NCBI RefSeq assembly: GCF_964204645.1
Contig: NC_134032.1
Coordinates: forward strand, 8,488,275-8,552,274
Length of the DNA stretch: 64,000 nucleotides
Source of the DNA: Tubulanus polymorphus
Taxonomy: Eukaryota; Nemertea; Palaeonemertea; Tubulaniformes; Tubulanidae
Direction of reading: 5' to 3'
The notes beneath the pieces were generated by a model. The model was not told the origin of the DNA and did not search any database. It saw only the letters and a list, made by a program, of their open reading frames with translations. Below, piece after piece: positions 7,475 to 51,640 of the stretch (position 1 is its first letter; the number at the start of each line of letters is the position of its first letter). Both the position numbers and the translations under genes were made by a program.

Positions 7475-7972
7475 ATATGATATTATATTACATATTATTA
7501 TATATTTTATTATTTTTATCCGCACCTTAGTGATTTATTATAATCCGTCCGCCAGGACGGGTAGTTTGCTAGTCTATCCTATTATATTACATACTATTAT
7601 ATATTATATTATTTTTATCCGCACCTTAGTGATTTATTATAATCCGTCCGCCAGGACGGGTAGTTTGCTAGTCTATCCTATTGTATTACATATTATCATA
7701 TATTATATTATTTTTATCCGCACCTTAGTGATTTATTATAATCCGTCCGCCAGGACGGGTAGTTTGCTAGTCTATCCTATTGTATTACATATTATCATAT
7801 ATTATATTATTTTTATCCGCACCTTAGTGATTTATTATAATCCGTCCGCCAGGACGGGTAGTTTGCTAGTCTATACTATTTATATTATATATTTTATTAT
7901 TTTTATCCGCACCTTAGTGATTCATTATAATAATCTACCCGTCCGCCAGACGGGTGGTTTGCTAGTAAATAT
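7475..7972 (+). repeat. 99-bp minisatellite with internal hairpin
   Basis: Nearly five tandem copies. The word CGCACC starts at 7521, 7620, 7719, 7818 and 7908, so three periods are exactly 99 and the last is 90. Each unit has an AT-rich half and a GC-rich half with the hairpin CCGTCCGCCAGGACGG. Because 99 is a multiple of three, a 148-codon reading frame runs through it. It lacks any protein signature and is best seen as a by-product. An (AT)n run precedes it. Confidence 0.9.
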
Positions 7973-8852: not shown

Positions 8853-9749
8853 TCAGGCGTTTCTGGCCAGTAAGACGTTTTCCAGTGTCGCAGGCAACAT
8901 CGGGAACCCATAACTATATACGACATGTTTACGGATGATATCCTGAATTTGTGCGCGCGACTTTTCCAGTAAAGTATCTATGTCTCGACCTGCGATGAAC
9001 GTCACTATCGCGTCGCCCATCTTACGAATGGCTGCGTCATGTGCGCTGATGCACGATCGGGCTGGTTGCAGAGCTAGGTGCATCATAAGTGCGCCCTCGT
9101 CGATAGAGCGCGAAACCGCCGTCATCTTAGCAGCTTTCGTGCGTAGGAGTTCATCTAGGTCAACTAGGTTTTGGGGCATGAATGGACCGTCGCCGGCAAG
9201 GGCTCGTAGTCCTCGTAGTACGTTCCAAAACGCCGTGTTGTTCGTTGCAGTCACGAACACTCGCCCACGCGCGTTAGCTAACTTGTAGAGCGAGACTTCC
9301 AAAACATCCCCCGGATCGTCGAAGTAATAGAGCACGTGCGAGAAAACGATCAAATCGTAGAAGTCGTTCGGTAAGAAAGAAGGCGCCGCCTCGCTAGAGA
9401 ACTCACGTTTATAGACCTCGGATTCGAAGTTGTACTTGCTGGCGAGTGTATTCATTCGAGTCTCCAGCTCCCGTGCCATAGCGTCGTTTGGTTCAATACA
9501 GTCCATGCGTTCGAAACTCACTTCATCGCCGAGTTCGGTCACCACGTCTTCCAACAAATATCCGTGAGCCGAACCGACTGATAGCAGCCTCAAACCTCTC
9601 CGCCTGTCGTTGTCTGTTGTCTCCAGTACGTCGCTAGCAGTCTGACGGACGGCACGAACGGCTTCACATAATCTCTTCTCCGCGAAAGTAGCTTCGCTGT
9701 GATGCAAACGGAGTGACCGGAAAGCGTCGCTGTATTTTAGACCATTCAT
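8853..9749 (-). CDS. Histamine N-methyltransferase-like SAM-dependent methyltransferase, single exon
   Basis: A 298-residue class I methyltransferase, close to the 292 residues of human histamine N-methyltransferase. From the ATG: an N-terminal KYSDAFRSLRLHHSE block like the HNMT start, a glycine-rich SAM motif LRLLSVGSAHGYLLEDV near residues 53-69, the acidic turn MDCIEPN near 82-88 that would hold the SAM ribose, and YDLIVFSHVLYYFDDP near 131-146, matching the HNMT 'LYYV.D' region. Known HNMT transfers a methyl group to the imidazole of histamine; substrate here is inferred only. The start is the ATG at 9749; the upstream TTG at 9758 is in frame but not a normal start. There is no intron, unlike the vertebrate gene, which may mean a retrocopy or an expanded intronless family. 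The C-terminal third is divergent. Confidence 0.85.
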   Translation of the reverse strand: MNGLKYSDAFRSLRLHHSEATFAEKRLCEAVRAVRQTASDVLETTDNDRRRGLRLLSVGSAHGYLLEDVVTELGDEVSFERMDCIEPNDAMARELETRMNTLASKYNFESEVYKREFSSEAAPSFLPNDFYDLIVFSHVLYYFDDPGDVLEVSLYKLANARGRVFVTATNNTAFWNVLRGLRALAGDGPFMPQNLVDLDELLRTKAAKMTAVSRSIDEGALMMHLALQPARSCISAHDAAIRKMGDAIVTFIAGRDIDTLLEKSRAQIQDIIRKHVVYSYGFPMLPATLENVLLARNA

Positions 9750-10493
9750 CTCGTGCAACGAGATAGAATTAACAGTTCTACAATAGTATATGAATTGCGG
9801 GCGCGGTGCGCTTTCTTAGACTGGTTTTGCTCTAACACGTATCCGGATTACGTATATAGCATCTCAGACCGACTCGGAGTTTCTCGGTTTGTAACGAAAC
9901 GAGTACCAATTTTCTGTCCTTAAGTACTGAAAAAAATTATATAACTTTTCAGCTTAAATTCAGACCTGGTCAACTGCGCCACAAACTACTTAATTTACGC
10001 GTTGTGTGGCCTATAGAGCGCCATATACGCCTGTGATCTCGACTTTTACGTAAGCTACATGTATTCGTGCACAAAACGTGGTAGGCGCACAATAGAAATT
10101 ACTTGATCAAGCATATGACAGACGATATACAGACATTAAGAGAGAAAAAAAAACAAATAAACAGCAATTCTTCAGCCGTAGTCATCTTATGATGATTTAA
10201 TAAATTTTTAATTACTACGTATGTGTAATTTCGGTATCGCCGACGAACGGCGGACCAAGATTTTGCAAAGGTCAAACGGCAAAAAACTTCGTGGCAATTA
10301 TTCGGAAAGCCGATCAATATCAATTCTAGTCGAACTTTACCTCGATATTCAGCCTGATTACTCCAAGTTTGAACTAATGATGGTGATCATGACGCGTTGC
10401 TGTCTGCAAGTTGTGCGGACGCCAACACAGCTGCACACACATTTCGCAATATGCGACACATGTTAGTGGCATATTCATAGAAAACTCTACCCC
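9750..10493. other. Divergent intergenic region between methyltransferase and sHSP genes
   Basis: About 740 bp separating two genes pointing away from each other. It must hold the methyltransferase promoter. I see no further coding sequence. Confidence 0.5.
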
Positions 10494-10602: not shown

Positions 10603-10702
10603 ATATTTAAAATGCACCGGGTGTCCAGTCAGTGATTTGAAGACGATTGTTTGGAGCGACAGACGTTTTAAAGCGATTGTTGGATTTAGTGAATAGCAGA
10701 CG

Positions 10703-11581
10703 ATGTTTCCACGTTTCCCCGTTTATGAATTTGAAGAAGGGGGCGCATCGGCGATGCCCCCCATATTCGACTCGATGATGCGCGAATCTTGGAATAACTG
10801 GGACGACATGATGGCAGAAATGCAGCAACATTTCGGGCCAGAAAATCATTGCCAGTGGCAGCGCCGTCGCCCAAGAGACGAGCGAGGCTCACCGAGACAT
10901 CCCAGGGGTAACAGGAGAGGCAATTATGAAGGATGTCAAAGGGGACGGTACAACGCGCCTCCTAGCGGCGATCCGTCTGAGCAAACGACATCGGCGATGT
11001 GGTCGATGAAGATTCGCTTGCCCGGGTTTCGGGCGGCGGATATTGAAGTGAGAATCGCAACCGAAGATCCGCGCAGATTAGTGATCAGAGCGGCGCGCAG
11101 ATTCTCCGACCAAGACGACCGCGAAGTGATCAGGCGAATTCAAATACCGGACGATGTCAATAAAGAAACGATTAGAACCGTTTTCAACGTGGGCGAGGCG
11201 ATTTTGAGGATAATCGGCGTTCGAACGACGGTCTCGGCACCGCCGCGAGGTGCCGAGCAGAAAGCTGGTCCCGAACCTGAGTCGAGGATGCGAAACCGAT
11301 CTGAGCGGAGGCGTGAGCAAAGATCTTCAGGAGAACCTGTTATTATCCCAATTACACGCGGCCCGAGCGCTCCACCGTTTGACACAGACACCCAGACGCG
11401 CGAAGAATCGGCGCCTGGTTTCCCCGCTAGTGATGGCGATGATGGTAACTCTACAACCACACTCGCCACAGTGGCCATTGATGACGGCTTCAATCCTGAC
11501 GACATCAAAATCGACGTCATGAACGGTACGCTGTCACTGCACGGTCGACACGACGATAGACAGGGGGTTCTCCTCATATGA
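10703..11581 (+). CDS. Small heat shock protein with two alpha-crystallin domains, the second truncated
   Basis: A 292-residue intronless protein. Residues 1-90 are a Met/Trp-rich then Arg/Gly-rich N-terminal region. Residues 98-173 form a complete alpha-crystallin domain: WSMKIRLPGFRAADIEVRI, then EDPRRLVIRA, then REVIRRIQIPDDVNKETIRT, then AILRIIGVR. A tail follows with PVIIPI near 212-216, the I-x-I motif that docks between subunits. Residues 252-286 start a second domain (FNPDDIKIDVMNGTLSLHGR), but a stop cuts it after the third or fourth strand. Small heat shock proteins are ATP-independent chaperones that form oligomers and hold unfolding proteins. The upstream heat shock elements and TATA box predict stress induction. 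Two-domain sHSPs are known from flatworms and some other invertebrates. The short end could be a frameshift, a missed splice or a real variant; no remainder of domain two is visible downstream. Confidence 0.88.
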   Translation: MFPRFPVYEFEEGGASAMPPIFDSMMRESWNNWDDMMAEMQQHFGPENHCQWQRRRPRDERGSPRHPRGNRRGNYEGCQRGRYNAPPSGDPSEQTTSAMWSMKIRLPGFRAADIEVRIATEDPRRLVIRAARRFSDQDDREVIRRIQIPDDVNKETIRTVFNVGEAILRIIGVRTTVSAPPRGAEQKAGPEPESRMRNRSERRREQRSSGEPVIIPITRGPSAPPFDTDTQTREESAPGFPASDGDDGNSTTTLATVAIDDGFNPDDIKIDVMNGTLSLHGRHDDRQGVLLI

Positions 11582-25800: not shown

Positions 25801-28800
25801 CCTTTAGTGGACTTCATCATAGTCTGTATTACATTGTAGCAAGCTCTGGTCAGTGTATTGGAATCGTTTTGTCACTACGGCAACATCGTACACAAATTGG
25901 AAACATTTGTCACGGTGACGACTGAATTGAGCGTGTCGTCTGCCGGTGGAACGTGTCAGACGTATCAGGCATTCGCGAAGTCAATCGCAAGGTTTCTGAA
26001 CAGATTTAAAAGCGAACTCGTTAAACTTGAGGAAGAAACTATCGAACAAGGTAAGCCACGAGATTCACCTGTGGCAAGCCAGGATCCACTTAGTGTGATA
26101 GTGCACAGTAGAACATCAACCTAAGGCGGGTCTAGGATTCTTTAGAGTGTACCTGAAAATTGGAATGAGCACTCAATTTGAAAAGGGCCTATTTGACAAT
26201 GTGAGGGCAGCAAGGGTGAAATATAGGTCGTGGTTCTGGTGGCCCTCGCACAGAAAATTTAGGCGTTGTTACGTAACAGACTTGCTGCTAAGTAGTGTAT
26301 TGATATATTCACTACTGCTAGCTACGTACATTTATATGAAAAACGTCCCGTGCGTGTGGCCAAGTTTAAATTTTCCAAGAAACTGCAAACGATTCTAGCA
26401 ACTGCCGCGCCGCCGTGGTAAATACTAACAGCAAGCGCATGTATTCTAAATCTTCTAAATAATGAGTAGGCCTATAATGAAATCTTTTTGAATTATAAAG
26501 GCTTGAACTCTAGCAGGGGCCTTAAGGTCCATTCAATGAACAGCTTCAAAACAATTGTATTGACATCTGGATGCAAAGCTTGTGCACCCATAGACTGCAT
26601 CATGGTCACCTTAATTGGCCTATATATCTATGTCATGGGCTTTTGGCGATTAGCCGATAGCAGACTGTATCCAGTGGTTTGATTTTTGAATTTCGTTTCT
26701 TGTTCCTATCTACAGTGATTTCAATCGCCAAACCAAGAAATTGCGAAGTTTCATATTTAGCGCATTCCTATCTGATCCCTCAAAAGTTCTTCTTAAAATT
26801 GACTTCCATCCCTATCAGCACAATGACCAGGTTGGCAGCCCTGAGTTACTCGGAATTGATTTTTGATTCGTGTTTAAATTTGAATTGATATAATTTCATC
26901 GCTAACAAGCGATGAATAGGCCTAGCTGTTTTCATTGAACAAACTTTATTAGTATTGATGTGTGTTTTATAGTACATGTATTCGTGTGAATAGACGACAT
27001 TTGGTCCGAACACGCAGAATCGAATCAATCATGAATTCTACTCCGATGCGGATCGCGAGACCTTACAACAGCTACGTCGCTCTATTGTCGGTGCAAAACA
27101 AGTTTGGTATCTACCGTACCGTGTCATTGGTTGTTTTGCCGACCTTTTTCCTGTTAGGAGCCTTCGGAAATTCGGCGACTACCCTCGTGATGATAAGTCG
27201 CAGATTTCGCGGTTTATCGTATGCGAACTATCTTATCGTTTTGTCGATGAGCGACTTCGCGGCGGTCGTCGCGTTCAGTCTGATGCCCGTTTTACAGTTT
27301 CTTCACGGGCATCTCGGCGCCGGCGCGAGCAGGCTCTTGGTGAATTCACCGATCGGTTGTCGAGTCTACGAATTCGTTATGTCGTCTATGATAGCTTGCA
27401 GCTCCTGGTTGATAGTAGCGATATCTTTAGAACGCGCGGCAGTCGTTCTCTTCCCGTTAACGTCTCGTCTGATATGTACACCGAGTTTCGCCCGATCCGT
27501 GATTCTCGTGATTATCATAATGAACGTATCGGTAGTCGGTATTCCCCTAGCCGTATTGATGCAGTTTTCGCATGGAATAACCGGATGCTACTTAAGATTA
27601 TCAGACCGAGCAGCGCTTTTTATAACGTTTGTCATTCATGTTTTTTTTGCGCCGTTAACAGTGATTATCATATCTAATTCGATTATAATAGTTCAGTTAT
27701 TCAGAGGTTCAGAAATGGTTTCGTCCGATCAGAAAACGACAAAAGTGAAACGCACGACAATAATGCTCGTCACTGTTTCACTCGCGTTTGCGATGTTTAC
27801 GCTTCCGACCTCTATTACGGCGTTCCTACCGATTCGCGTAGAACAGAAACAATTATTGTACGATATAGGTATCAAGATCCAAGTTTGTAACTATGTCGTT
27901 AATTTCTATATATATCTTTTGATGGGACGCGAAATTCGTGATTATTTCTGTACGAATTTCTGCTGTGGAAATTCATCGAAATGATCATGACCGGCTAGTT
28001 TGATTTTCACTGCTATGACTTATTTCTATTTCTGAGAATGTTGTTAGGATGATGCGTCCGAGTCGGCCAACAAGTCGATCCGTGCCGTCGAGTATCTTCC
28101 CTGCCAGGTCACGGCAATTGGACCAATCGTAACAAGCAGGTCAACCCTTCAACAGCAGCTATTGGCCTCTGTGTTTCAATGCTTAATTCAAGAAGAAAAA
28201 TGTTTAAAAAAATTACATGCATCTTACAATCATCATACAAACATAACAAGACATAAAAATACATGTTGGCGACCGGATTGAACACCGGATTAGCGTCCGT
28301 ATTACGACATTGACCAATCGCGAGATAGTATAAAAACTGGCAGCGACAGTTGCGTCGTAGATTGGCTCAGTAATGCAAGCTTTTTGGCCAACTGCATTTT
28401 CATGACTTATTCAATGCAGTAGGCCTATGCCAGGCATACGTATAAAAGGTGTCTAAAAGCCATGTGGTGAAAAAATACCTGCCTTTGGGCATTATGAGAT
28501 TTCATTATTGCAGAATATTGCGTAGTGGTGAAAACCATGCGGGTCTGGAACTATGCCTATCCACTGATGTTGTCCTCTTTAGGCATCTAAAACCTGCAAA
28601 TTTGAATCCTCTCGTAAATTGTGCATTCTCGTACGTATTTGTTCAGGCATTTCGAACACCAAGTGGAAACCCCACAAGTTGCGGCCTTGGGCGTGGCCAC
28701 TTCATCCAAGATCCATCCTCTCTTTTCTTTTTGATTCCAATTTCCCAAGATCGTCCTCTGCGTTGATAGAGGTTGATAAAATCAGTACGGTATTCTAATT

Positions 28801-31800
28801 GATCGAATCTAGAATTCCCCAGGAAGCATGTCTATGTGTAATTGAGCTAATAATAGCCTCTGGTTGTAATTGTTCGTGGTGGCTCCCATTTTAAAAGTTT
28901 GAATGGTCCAATAAACTAACGCCTAATTGACTCAATCAGATTCATGAAAGGTTTTGAATTCAATCTATAACTGCTCGAAGTAAAGAAACAAACTAATTTG
29001 AAATGCGATTCGAATTTGTTTGTGATATTCATAACGCATTGATTTTTGATTAAAGAACCAAACTTTGCGTAGAGAATATAGATCTGTGACTTCTGGAAAA
29101 TTTGTTTCGAAATGAGGTGCCGGCACTGGTACTGTGGCAAGGCATGTGAGTATTCTGCGAGGACCTGCCAGGTGTCACTTTTGGCTACCTCTGATTTTCA
29201 ACCCCATAAAAAACCATTACAATAACGTTTTGATAACTACAACGTATGCATTATGTATAAGGGGGGTAGTGTGTACCGGTATTTATTGGCAAAGTTATAA
29301 ACTTTTATGACAAAAATTCATATACAAGCATATATGGCGGGAAACAATATAACATAGAACAAAAATTGATATGTAGATTTAGGCCTATATTAAGAAGATT
29401 CGTAGAGTAGCCGTGTTAACTGGGTTTTTGATTGATTGATTTTATTTTCATAGAACATAGTTTAGTATAATAATTTATCTTACAAAATACCAGTATGAAC
29501 TATGAAGGACTCGTCCAGGTTTAGAATAAATAGCGAGACGAGTAGTACTATATAATAGGTTAACCATTTATTTGATGCACGAGCTTTCACTACCAGTGTA
29601 AATAAGTAGCGAAAGCTCGTGCGTAAAATAAGTAGTTAACCTATATATAACTCATCTTGTTATTTACATATTATGTTAAGGTTGCTTGAATATATAAACT
29701 TTCTTAAGAAATTTTGAAAAGTTTGAAAGATCGTTGTTATTACGTGGAAAAATCGAGAATTTCACTGTAATGATATTTCAATGATACATAGGTCTATTTG
29801 AATTTGCACCCCAGGACCCAGTTCCACAGTTGTGAGTTAGAGTTAACTCTGAGTTAAAATTAGTTCATTTTGAATGATTTAACTCAGGGTCAAATTTTAA
29901 CTCCGAACTGTGGAACTGGACCCTGAACTTTAAAAATTGAAAAATTTAAAATTCGAAAAAATGGACTAATTTTGGCTAACGTTGTAGGGATTGTCCGTCA
30001 CTCCATCTGGTGGTGAGAATTTAAAACACAAGTCCGTCTGCTTTTTCAGAAGGAACGCTGACGATCGCGACGATGTTGAGTCGTCTGTCCGCGTCATTCG
30101 ATCAGTTAGCCCTGATCGGCGAAATCTACGACGAATGTTTAACGGATCGTCTTCACGACGGCTGTCATTCCGAGGCGGACGGAATGCGTTCGAAGGCGTA
30201 TCGTCTGATATCGAGGCTCTACGCGGTTCTGATGACCGTCAGTTTGTACTCGACCGAAAATATGAAAAAGGTTGGTGAAGATTGTAACTTTTTCGGGGTC
30301 GGACCTGGTCCAAATCTAAAATAATGTGAAAAATCGAACAAATCTGTGAATATAATGTGAATAATCTTGAAAATGTTCAGAAAGCATCGGTTCATTTTGG
30401 TTCCCTTATTGCGCCGTATACTGTGCAGGTGAGAATTTGTGCACTGTAAGCTGTGTTATAAAGTTAAGGAAGTTTTCAATATGAAAATGATTTGAACATA
30501 TTTCGAGGCCAGGTAGGAATTCCAGAAAATGGGTACTCGAATATGGGGATAGGGTATTTGGAGAGATCGCTAGTATGAAATTGGATGCATGTATACGGAC
30601 AAAATAACGAAATGGGATGCATGCGTACGGTCAATGTAACCAAAAGTGACCATCACAAGTCTTTGCTCATTTTGGTCGTCAACTAACTTCGAACGTTGTA
30701 GTCGTTTTCGATTTCAGTTTCGATTGTTGATGCTGATTTGGTTGGATACGATTCGGCCGTATTTGAATATAATCGGCGAGTGGTTGACAAGCGGTCGCCT
30801 GAATGATGTTTATGGAGAATTCGTCATACGCAGGTACGAAAATTCGGCGCAAGATCTTCGGTCGTAGTCTGGAGTTCGATTTGACGCGAAACTTGAAACA
30901 TCGTAGATGGAAAAGAATGGCCACTAAGAAATGTGAAATAAGTCTGGGAAGGTTGATCCTTAAGATAAGGCCGGGCTTAGTTCAATTAGGGCCAGTTACG
31001 CAGTTTAGACTAAACCTGTTTCTTAACATTAGTGATCAAAATTTCCCAGCTTTTCCAATCTTCCAAACTTTTCAAATTTTCTCTAGCGATATATGTTGAC
31101 AAACTGTCAGCGGTGAAATAGGGTTAACGAGACGGCCATTCTAAGCCTCGAAATGATTTTTAAAAAACCTAAAAATGTACGAAACTTCAGAAATCCTTTT
31201 TAACTTAAGACGTCTTAAAATATCAAATTTTATTACCCGTTTGAAATTTTGTTTATGTTGCAGAAACGAAAGCGTAAAAAATGATGACGCGGATTTCTGG
31301 CGAAAATCGTTTGTTCTGCACTGCGAGGAGCCGCAGGACGAGCAGACGCACTTCTTCGATGAAGACCGTCGATTGCCGTCGTTTCTTCAACCGGTTTTAC
31401 GCGAACTATTGCTCTGCGGCAAATCGATGGAAGTGCTCAATTCGCTCGGCAAATTGCAGAAAGTTATACCGGGAAGAGGTTCGTCGAAAAAGATTTTTGA
31501 TTTCTTTTCTTTCATGAAAGCGGGTGCCTGCGACCGAGCAAAACTTTTCAACTTCGAAAGTTTGAAAGTTTTGAAAATGTGAAATAACAAATGGCAACGA
31601 ATCCAAATACATTTTTCCTCATTGCGTTAGAAAGTAACGAGAAGTGACAAATAGGAGCTGAACCAGAGTTAAAAGGTTTTAATTTTATTGTGAAAACATG
31701 AATTAGTCAATGACATATAAACCAAATTAGTAGGGTACCGGCGGCACACACCAGATGGCACAACAATACACTGAGTTATTAATAGTGAAAATTAGTTCAT

Positions 31801-45895: not shown

Positions 45896-47182
45896 TAGCC
45901 CACTTGGGACTTAAGTCCCAGCGGGCTATTGCGTTCACTTTTCGTCCGTCGTCCGTCCGTTCGTACGTCCGTCCGTCCGTCCGTCCGTAGACGGAATCCA
46001 GTTATTTTGGGAAGTTTTGAAGATGCTTCAAGGTAACGTCTTGATATTTGGGTTACACATGTATCTACCCTAGACACATCTTCAGCCCAAAAACTGGCCC
46101 TGTCAGAATCAAGATGGCCGACTGGCAGCCATTGTTGTTCGCCAAAATCAGCACTTTTTACACATTTTTGAAGTTTTTGAGGGAAATTTTGAAGACGCTT
46201 TGATCAATTACCTTGATCTTTCGGATATATGTGAATCCCCCAGGGCCCATCAACATAACAAAAATTGGGTCGGTCGGACTCAAGATGGCCGTCCTATGAC
46301 CTTTTTAGTGCCCAAAAATGTTAATTTTGGCCCGAATTCTGAGTCCTGTAGCTTCCTACTGGTTTGCCATTTCTCATTACAATTTGTGATGGGTGTTCTT
46401 TGGAAAGGGATATTTTATACCTGAGACAGGTATTTTTCATCAGCCAATTATGACGCAATTGGCGGCCATCTTGGTGTCACCAGTACTCATTCGTAAGTGG
46501 GAAAAAGTTTTTCCACATTATATTGATACCTAAGCGTATTTTGCTACCACAATCAATTAGAAAGTTGTAGCTCATAACGTGTTCTATGATTGTGGTGAGT
46601 TTCAAGGTAATTGGAATTCGTATATGGCCACCAGGGGGCGTTGAATAATACAATATCTTAGCATTTCTTTATTATATTCGTACCTATGAATATTTTGTAA
46701 CCACAATCAATTGGAAAGTTGTAGCTCATGACATCATATATGATTGTTGCGAGTTTTAAGGACATAAGTTTTTCTATATGGTCACCAGGGGGCGTTGAAT
46801 AGTAGAATAACTTAGTATTTCCTTATTATATTGGTACCTAGGCATATTTTGTTACCATGATCAATTGCAAAGTTGTGGTTCATGACATGTTCTATGATTG
46901 TGGTGAGTTTCGAGGTCATTGGGTTTTGAATATGGTCACCAGGGGGCGTTGAATAGTAGAATGACTTAGTATTTCCATATTAAATTGGTAACGAGGCATA
47001 TTTTGTTATCACAATCAATTACAAAATCGTAGCTGCTGACATGTTCTATGATTGTGGTGAGTTTTAAGGTCATTGGTTTTTGTAAATGGTCACCAGGGGG
47101 CTTTGAATATTGAAATTGTTAGATTGTTGAGCATTTGAAACCACTTCCCAAGTGGGCATGGTGTCCCTGGACCCCTAGTTTG
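45896..47182 (+). mobile_element. 1.29-kb non-autonomous element inserted in the minisatellite
   Basis: Starts with the near-palindrome AGCCCACTTGGGACTTAAGT CCCAGCGGGCT and ends ...CCCAAGTGGGCAT...GGACCCCTAGTTTG. Near the left it holds a (CCGT)n run at 45944-45988, and on the right four tandem 154-bp units. No transposase. A shortened relative is at 20790-21378. Confidence 0.75.
46520..47120 (+). repeat. Four tandem 154-bp units inside the element
   Basis: CCAGGGGGC starts at 46631, 46785, 46939 and 47093, three spacings of exactly 154. Each unit also has CACAATCAATT, AAAGTTGTAGCTCATGAC and TATGATTGTGGTGAGTTT-type words. Confidence 0.88.
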
Positions 47183-50429: not shown

Positions 50430-51640
50430 AAAAGACTCTCTCGGTATCGGTTTCTCTATGTAACTATGAATGTCGCCTCACTCTACCTCTCCCTCAACAT
50501 ATCCCCCCTCACTATCGCGCTCCCCTCACTCTCTCGGTATCGGTTTCTCTATGTAGCTGTATGTGAATGTCGCCTCACTCTACCTCTCCCTCCCCTCACC
50601 ATACCTCCCTCACTATTTCGTTCCCCTCACTCTCTCGGTATCAGTTTCTCTATGTAGCTGTATATGAATGTCGCCTCACTCTACCTCTCCCTCCCCTCAC
50701 TGTATCTCCCCTCACTCTCTCGGTATCGGTTTCCCTATGTAACTATATGAATGTCGCCTCACTCTACGTCTCCCTCCCCTCACCATATCCCCCCTCACTA
50801 TTTCGTTCCCCTCACTCTCTCGGTATCAGTTTCTCTATGTAGCTGTATATGAATGTCGCCTCACTCTACCTCTCCCTCCACTCACCATATCTCCCCCCGC
50901 TATTGCGTTCCCCTCACTCTCGGTATCGGTTTCTCTACGTAACTGTATATGAATGTCGCCTCACTCTACCTCTCCCTCCCCTCACTGTATCTCCCCTCAC
51001 TCTCTCGGTATCGGTTTCCCTATGTAACTATATGAATGTCGCCTCACTCTACGTCTCCCTCCCCTCACCATATCCCCCCTCACTATTGCGTTCCCATCAC
51101 TCTCTCGGTATCAGTTTCTCTATGTAGCTGTATGTGTCGCCTCACTCTACGTCTCTCCCCTCACCATATCCCCCTCACTATTGCGTTCCCCTCACTCTCT
51201 CGGTATCAGTTTCTCTATGTAGCTGTAGGCTATGTGAATGTCGCCTCACTCTTCCTCTCCCTCCCCTCACCATATCTCCCCTCACTATTGCATTCCCCTC
51301 ACTCTCTCGGTATCAGTTTCTCTATGTAGCTGTATGTGTCGCCTCACTCTACCTCTCCCTCCCCTCACCATATCTCCCCTCACTATTGCGTTCCCCTCAC
51401 TCTCTCGGTATCGGTTTCTCTATGTAGCTGTATATGAATGTCGCCTCACTCTACCTCTCCCTACCCTCACTCTGATGTTCCCCTTAATCTCTCCGAATCA
51501 GTTTCTCTATGTAGCTGTATATGAATATCGCCTCACTCTACCTCTCCCTCCCCTCACCGTATCTCCCCTCACTATTGCGTTCCCCGCACTTTCTCGGTAT
51601 CGGTTTCTCTATGTAGCTGTATATGAATGTCGCCCGTTGA
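50430..51640 (+). repeat. Pyrimidine-rich minisatellite, 80-105 bp unit, about 13 copies
   Basis: Units consist of CTCTCGGTATCGGTTTCTCT, ATGTAGCTGTATATGAATGT, CGCCTCACTCTACCTCTCCC and CTCACTATTGCGTTCCCCTC. Length varies because the CTCAC blocks expand and shrink. All three frames are open for long stretches owing to composition, not coding. Confidence 0.9.

Follow-up and report, generated by a model that had tools for sequence, protein, structure and literature searches.

Lineage-specific expansions of rhodopsin-class G-protein-coupled receptors (GPCRs) are known from echinoderms, where, in the portions of two reports drawn on here, the surreal-GPCRs of sea urchins are cited as 538 and the olfactory-receptor-like (OR-like) receptors of sea cucumbers are mostly single-exon genes in tandem arrays (PMC7042368, PMC5442662). 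Among human nested genes about 41% have a single exon and about 63% lie on the opposite strand, according to figures cited in PMC3192792. Here we describe P0001, a single-exon rhodopsin-class receptor gene that lies in an intron of the housekeeping gene TUBGCP5 in a 64,000-nucleotide stretch of the genome of the nemertean Tubulanus polymorphus (NCBI RefSeq assembly GCF_964204645.1, contig NC_134032.1, positions 8,488,275 to 8,552,274, forward strand), which we call the window. We consider it likely that P0001, which has the look of an active gene, belongs to a very large family of one-exon rhodopsin-class receptors, expanded in this lineage and probably serving as chemoreceptors, and that it arrived by DNA-level duplication with a promoter of its own.

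Set by description beside the echinoderm surreal-GPCRs and the starfish and sea-cucumber OR-like genes, the family of P0001 is likewise a large one-exon expansion of the rhodopsin class. Unlike the echinoderm OR-like receptors, as far as the excerpted descriptions go, it is without their signatures, and many of its copies are dispersed as well as clustered. P0001 resembles many human nested genes in having one exon, and its same-strand nesting is the minority arrangement in the excerpted human figures, yet not a rare one (PMC3192792); what differs here is that members of one receptor family recur in three different hosts. In the titles and opening lines of abstracts from an open-access library we found no description of this receptor family or of intron-nested chemoreceptors.

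Results and discussion

A receptor gene within a TUBGCP5 intron

The receptor gene and its host are arranged as follows:

25858..26050, forward strand: TUBGCP5 coding exon 5' of the intron (the coding part used for the phmmer match), with a GT donor at 26051
26051..30049, forward strand: TUBGCP5 intron with the receptor gene inside; GT-AG, phase 1, from the sequence and an ungapped alignment over the junction
27031..27984, forward strand: single-exon rhodopsin-class GPCR P0001, 317 amino acids and stop, from the open reading frame (ORF), Pfam and family alignments
30050..30270, forward strand: TUBGCP5 exon 3' of the intron, from phmmer, its 3' border read off the sequence

The frame of P0001 opens with the ATG at 27031 and continues for 317 codons and a stop, with no internal stop. 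Its product matches the Pfam model 7tm_1 with E=4.6e-17, covering profile positions 8-253 of 260. The host intron begins with GTAAG at 26051 and ends with TTTTTCAG (tttttcag) at 30049, and on reading the sequence it splits a gaa codon after the first base, which sets it in phase 1. When the peptides of the two flanking exons are joined over 26050/30050, their match to Gamma-tubulin complex component 5 chains has E=1.3e-4; with further downstream exons added, the match reaches 9.7e-20 to a frog-type chain named Gamma-tubulin complex component and 6.9e-19 to component 5. The alignment is ungapped across the junction, and the flanking exons are colinear and in phase. TUBGCP5 and P0001 share the same strand. 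An initial annotation had proposed an intact seven-helix-type receptor frame nested on the same strand between phase-matched TUBGCP5 exons, and the intact receptor frame and its same-strand nesting are borne out by these data.

A family of several hundred one-exon receptors

We searched the genome from which the window comes (267.8 Mb, 77 contigs). Of 1751 candidates at first look, the best 125, P0001 included, are considered here, a choice that favours full-length, intact copies in one frame. Each of them has E<=1.1e-109 and 57-100% identity; together they spread over all of C1-C12, and 122 of the 125 are free of stops. A degenerate DNA pattern for ERAAVVLFPF, the motif at the third transmembrane helix (TM3) and second intracellular loop (ICL2), has 304 exact matches in the genome against 0 for the reversed control, and 488 against 13 when up to three mismatches are allowed. 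By these pattern counts, the genome has some 300 to 480 receptor genes of this type, P0001 among them. Copies occur both in clusters and dispersed across C1-C12: among the matches listed, at least 59 of the 304 exact ones lie on C2 at 6.62-8.18 Mb. Every paralogue retrieved with a full frame has a single exon.

Motifs were counted in 58 full-frame copies, from 61 aligned loci (the window copy and L003-L062); L027, L044 and L062, with broken or truncated frames, were excluded, and L001 and L002, which repeat other loci, were unused. Residues are given the position numbers that we take to apply to these receptors. D2.50, E3.49, R3.50, the two disulphide cysteines (C3.25 and one in the second extracellular loop), P5.50, P6.50, N7.49, F7.50 and Y7.53 are invariant in all 58 copies, including P0001. 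Position 3.51 holds alanine in 51 copies and valine in the remaining 7, while position 6.48 is threonine in 54. None of the 58 aligned copies has DRY, NPxxY or CWxP; P0001 reads LERAA at the DRY site and NFYIY at the NPxxY site, and is without CWxP. Since these variants are common to the whole family, neither LERAA nor NFYIY counts as damage to P0001. The initial annotation was literally right that DRY, NPxxY and the TM6 tryptophan are missing, but its conclusion that signalling may be unusual finds no support in that form: the variants are fixed or nearly so throughout the family, which keeps the core microswitch residues. Given the retained core, an ordinary G-protein mechanism is plausible for P0001, with coupling that would proceed via E3.49-R3.50, P6.50 and N7.49-Y7.53. 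The hydropathy profile of P0001 has eight peaks, the seven expected and one in ICL2; a single-sequence AlphaFold2 model had a mean pLDDT of 41.3 and was unusable.

Searched by phmmer against solved structures, P0001 finds the cholecystokinin-A receptor first (1.3e-7), with ghrelin receptors at 2.6e-7. A profile of 22 family members is nearest to galanin receptor 2 (6.6e-13), cholecystokinin-A (1.6e-12) and B1 bradykinin (1.2e-11) receptors, in keeping with the peptide-receptor type assigned at first annotation. Peptide receptors of the galanin, cholecystokinin, bradykinin and ghrelin group include the closest solved structures by profile, but the nemertean family differs from them in its hundreds of one-exon copies, the lack of a TM6 tryptophan and NF..Y in place of NP..Y. 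The structure of this repertoire, in which hundreds of one-exon copies are conserved on the cytoplasmic face and vary in the parts that face the ligand, suggests by analogy that the family probably consists of chemoreceptors. Such a repertoire would present many ligand-facing variants on a nearly fixed part that faces the G protein. The OR signatures LxxPxYxxxxxLxxxDxxxxxxxxP, MAxDRY and PxxNPxxY, as they appear in the excerpted source (PMC7042368), are each found in 0 of the 58 copies.

An upstream element shared with paralogues and the mode of copying

Upstream and downstream of P0001, the following features were noted:

26853..26870, forward strand: family upstream element GAATTGATTTTYNATTYG, 18 bp, a putative promoter element at -178 from the ATG, from genome pattern counts
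26853..27030, forward strand: upstream region homologous to paralogues L003-L006, from blastn, with about 75% identity in one alignment that includes the coding sequence
26965..26974, forward strand: TATA-like TTTTATAGTA, at -66 to -57, a weak reading made by eye
28910..28915, forward strand: AATAAA, a poly(A)-signal-like hexamer, the first past the stop, followed by ATTAAA at 29049 and AATAAA at 29525

P0001 carries GAATTGATTTTTGATTCG at -178. The pattern GAATTGATTTTYNATTYG was chosen after inspection of the sequences upstream of the copies, and has 38 exact matches in the genome against 0 for the reversed control. Receptor sequence follows on the same strand at 34 of the 38 sites. Twenty-two sites lie 104-447 bp upstream of known copies on the same strand, some of the ATGs being estimated from the motif match. 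In the stretches fetched behind the other 16, as yet unassigned elements, a receptor frame is present behind 8, a partial frame only behind 4 (L068, L070, L072, L074) and neither behind 4. A search for the 11-base core, with one mismatch allowed, recovers the element in 26 of the 58 copies within the upstream stretch examined (134-450 bp), whereas 1.09 would be expected and 100 shuffles gave a maximum of 4; the core is absent in 32 copies, for many of which the stretch is short. By eye, a repeated CAGTCAGTACACTCTCAGA-like motif stands just upstream of the ATG (within about 200 bp) in several copies, L019, L060 and L050 among them, and in the same comparison of upstream sequences it was not seen before P0001.

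An upstream element that travels with the coding sequence is what DNA-level copying predicts. We propose that a duplication at this level, segmental or ectopic, would have set a unit of promoter and coding exon into the TUBGCP5 intron. P0001 would then be transcribed from its own start within the intron, and the TUBGCP5 transcript would splice it out. An independent promoter inside the intron, called for by the initial annotation, is probably present, to judge from the family upstream element.

The initial annotation favoured a different route, in which P0001 would have reached the intron as a processed retrogene. Its single coding exon would fit this origin, as would the end of homology to its closest paralogues just past the stop codon (+957) and the short A-rich stretches downstream, such as A7 at 28206-28212. 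The full-frame paralogues are single-exon as well, however, so the absence of introns is inherited and says nothing of how P0001 arrived. Upstream DNA also came along: blastn homology to L003-L006 begins at -178 (-182 for L004), and the copy L019, itself nested in a NUBPL-like gene, has sequence in common with other copies to about -450. No clear poly(A) tract is found in the 120 nt past the stop of P0001, although age could erase such a scar. Finally, recent copies duplicate as multi-kilobase DNA blocks: those that L003-L006 have in common span 2.8 to at least 4.8 kb and are 93-99% identical. We therefore regard retroposition as unlikely.

Several points weigh against the account of P0001 as a DNA-level duplicate in a one-exon chemoreceptor family. 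The 3' homology to the closest copies, which ends at +957, leaves no long shared flank on that side; the short A-rich stretches do lie downstream in the intron; and TUBGCP5 shows no visible borders of the insertion. A long 5' untranslated region could include the -178 element, which would then be compatible with reverse transcription, while 4 of the 38 GAATTGATTTTYNATTYG sites (L064, L065, L077, L078) have no receptor sequence behind them. As the best 125 candidates favour one-frame copies, intron-bearing ones could escape. Chemoreceptor function is argued by analogy, and the OR signature of the excerpted source is absent.

Conservation and selection

Family alignments show cytoplasmic ends that are nearly fixed across copies; TM4-TM5 and the extracellular parts are variable. 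Under one-ratio codon models fitted to the protein tree, omega is 0.151 for conserved, 0.336 for intermediate and 0.444 for variable columns; the last is below 1 and does not show positive selection in the variable regions. Between P0001 and its sister L003, YN00 yields a nonsynonymous distance (dN) of 0.183 and a synonymous distance (dS) of 0.570, a dN/dS of about 0.32; over L003 and L006, which are both among the four nearest relatives of P0001, dN is 0.18-0.19 and dS about 0.57. At family-conserved columns, P0001 differs from the other copies by a second-position distance of 0.036 and a fourfold-site distance of 0.435. P0001 is under purifying selection and is maintained. Heterozygosity at fourfold sites drops where neighbouring columns are conserved (Spearman -0.38, p=3e-4, 84 columns). 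Gene conversion may be why synonymous sites vary so little in the cytoplasmic blocks, but shared ancestry or constraint at the DNA level would have the same effect.

These data bear on the idea that P0001 is a decaying relic whose frame is open by chance. It does depart from the family at 5 of the 129 columns with a conservation of 90% or more, but eleven other copies depart at 6-9 such columns. The frame has stayed intact through a large synonymous divergence from L003 with a low dN/dS, all core residues are present and the motif variants are family-wide, which makes decay most improbable. That P0001 is an alternative exon of TUBGCP5 and no separate gene is a fainter prospect still: it lies in the intron on the host strand, but its start, stop and upstream element are its own, its paralogous matches elsewhere number in the hundreds, and the TUBGCP5 exons join in frame without it.

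Recurrent nesting in host introns

At 18 loci we examined the flanking sequence, mostly over at least about 3 kb per side. These were the window, L007, L079-L086, chosen because their synonymous GC lean was high or low, and L087-L094, chosen as dispersed copies; L003-L006 were left out. Exons were screened crudely, as frames of at least 50-55 codons, mostly CpG-rich, judged by eye. Nesting on the same strand in a host intron was found at 3 of the 18 loci, with TUBGCP5, a carboxypeptidase-like gene and a NUBPL-like gene as hosts; at the other 15, this crude screen did not reveal one gene on both sides.

The copy L051, within L079 (C8:2044700-2052700), lies on the host strand in an intron (2740-4863 of L079) of a cytosolic-carboxypeptidase-like gene, whose joined exons match cytosolic carboxypeptidase-like protein 5 (E=3.6e-26) and one of whose exons matches Peptidase_M14. 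It has the family element at -179, with 1 mismatch, and about 80 nt past its stop there is an AATAAA. The copy L019, within L089 (2348-6626, minus strand; C7:6751200-6758600), lies on the host strand within a NUBPL-like gene; the best matches of the joined host exons are to iron-sulfur cluster carrier proteins (8.6e-59), and the NUBPL P-loop NTPase Pfam model matches one exon (2.3e-25). The frame of L019 continues beyond the usual stop, which gives it 353 residues and an altered C-terminus. Three insertions into introns are unsurprising in a genome of 268 Mb with hundreds of copies, and the shared strand in 3 of 3 nested copies, which chance would give 1 time in 8, is not significant.

Two further observations come from these surroundings. 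At L007:1169-4450, the GC-rich copy is unnested and stands about 1.9 kb downstream of the 3' exon of EF-1alpha, on the same strand. At L088 (C12:5872000-5879400), a piece of a different seven-transmembrane receptor (2-391) lies upstream of the family copy; it matches 7tm_1 with E=1e-6, below the curated cut-off.

Codon composition of the TUBGCP5-nested copy

P0001 is the richest of the 58 copies in both CpG and GC at third codon positions (GC3). Its GC3 is 0.511, compared with 0.377 in the 57 others (standard deviation 0.032, maximum 0.475), and it has 89 CpG compared with 39 (standard deviation 8, maximum 66). The third bases of its 157 fourfold codons (A 0.18, C 0.24, G 0.33, T 0.24) are similar to those of two TUBGCP5 exons (0.15, 0.21, 0.44 and 0.20 in the same order, from only 61 codons) and unlike those of the family (0.31, 0.15, 0.19 and 0.35). 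The intron around P0001 is AT-rich, with observed-to-expected CpG ratios of 0.78 and 0.91, which makes regional mutation bias an unlikely cause. Other ORFs in the window, including long ones for a Methyltransf_23 protein (8856-9815, reverse strand) and an HSP20/alpha-crystallin-like protein (10697-11578, forward strand), are GC3- and CpG-rich too, so the shift of P0001 goes toward the local coding style.

The change can be placed on the P0001 branch by comparison with L003 and the family majority: 26 synonymous AT-to-GC and 6 GC-to-AT substitutions, with 22 CpG gained and 2 lost, as against 5 and 5 substitutions, 1 CpG gained and 3 lost on the branch of L003. Across the 53 copies compared with the family majority codon (the near-duplicates L004, L005, L006, L010 and L058 were left out), P0001 has the strongest lean, with 38 AT-to-GC and 7 GC-to-AT differences. 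Next come the carboxypeptidase-nested L051 (34 vs 4) and L007 (23 vs 3); L055, L039 and L013, for which no host was recognised, also lean to GC. The NUBPL-nested copy is ordinary, with 31 CpG and GC3 rank 14 of 58, and weakens the simple rule that nested copies are CpG-rich.

We tentatively read the composition of P0001 as the outcome of selection on codons that followed a long residence or a broadening of expression. A wider proposal, which we hold to be doubtful, is that same-strand copies in introns of constantly transcribed genes are re-coded synonymously toward the composition of the host exons, with more CpG and fewer A/T third bases. Such re-coding may remove cryptic RNA-processing signals from the host pre-mRNA or may follow broad expression. 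The NUBPL-nested copy would fit only if it is younger; otherwise the re-coding idea is wrong. Since L007, L039, L055 and L013 lean to GC as well, the lean may be caused by proximity to an active gene, or by something else, rather than by nesting.

Other features of the window

The host intron also carries a repeat passenger:

29812..29925, forward strand: fold-back repeat with 33-nt arms, about 110-125 bp, resembling a miniature inverted-repeat transposable element; dispersed, also at L007, L079, L080, L083 and L087

Elsewhere in the window, a minisatellite-like array of about 1.2 kb occupies 50435-51634, with periods of about 83-101 and combined periods of 185-285, within a stretch of strong GC and AT skew. 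Tandem arrays are also present at 7481-7931 (99-bp units, 4.6 copies) and 46506-47109 (154-bp units, 3.9 copies). In the genome as a whole, a COX1 profile gave no match, its control giving matches in 8 of 14 genomes; a bindin search was also empty, but its control matched nowhere, and it is no evidence of absence. A pattern for the FMRFamide repeat had 2 scattered matches, against 3 for the reversed control.

Implications

The focus moves from one curious nested gene to a repertoire of several hundred one-exon receptors, which appears to multiply at the DNA level, bears a recognisable upstream element and has entered introns of at least three other genes. This repertoire is the main object and the nested position of P0001 is secondary to it, while the shift in composition may interest specialists. 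If the nested copies are silent, the repertoire would be a chemoreceptor-like expansion of the ordinary kind, in a non-model animal. If they are transcribed, they would form a natural set in which to study how a receptor shares its strand with a widely used host gene, and whether codon choice is shaped by host transcription.

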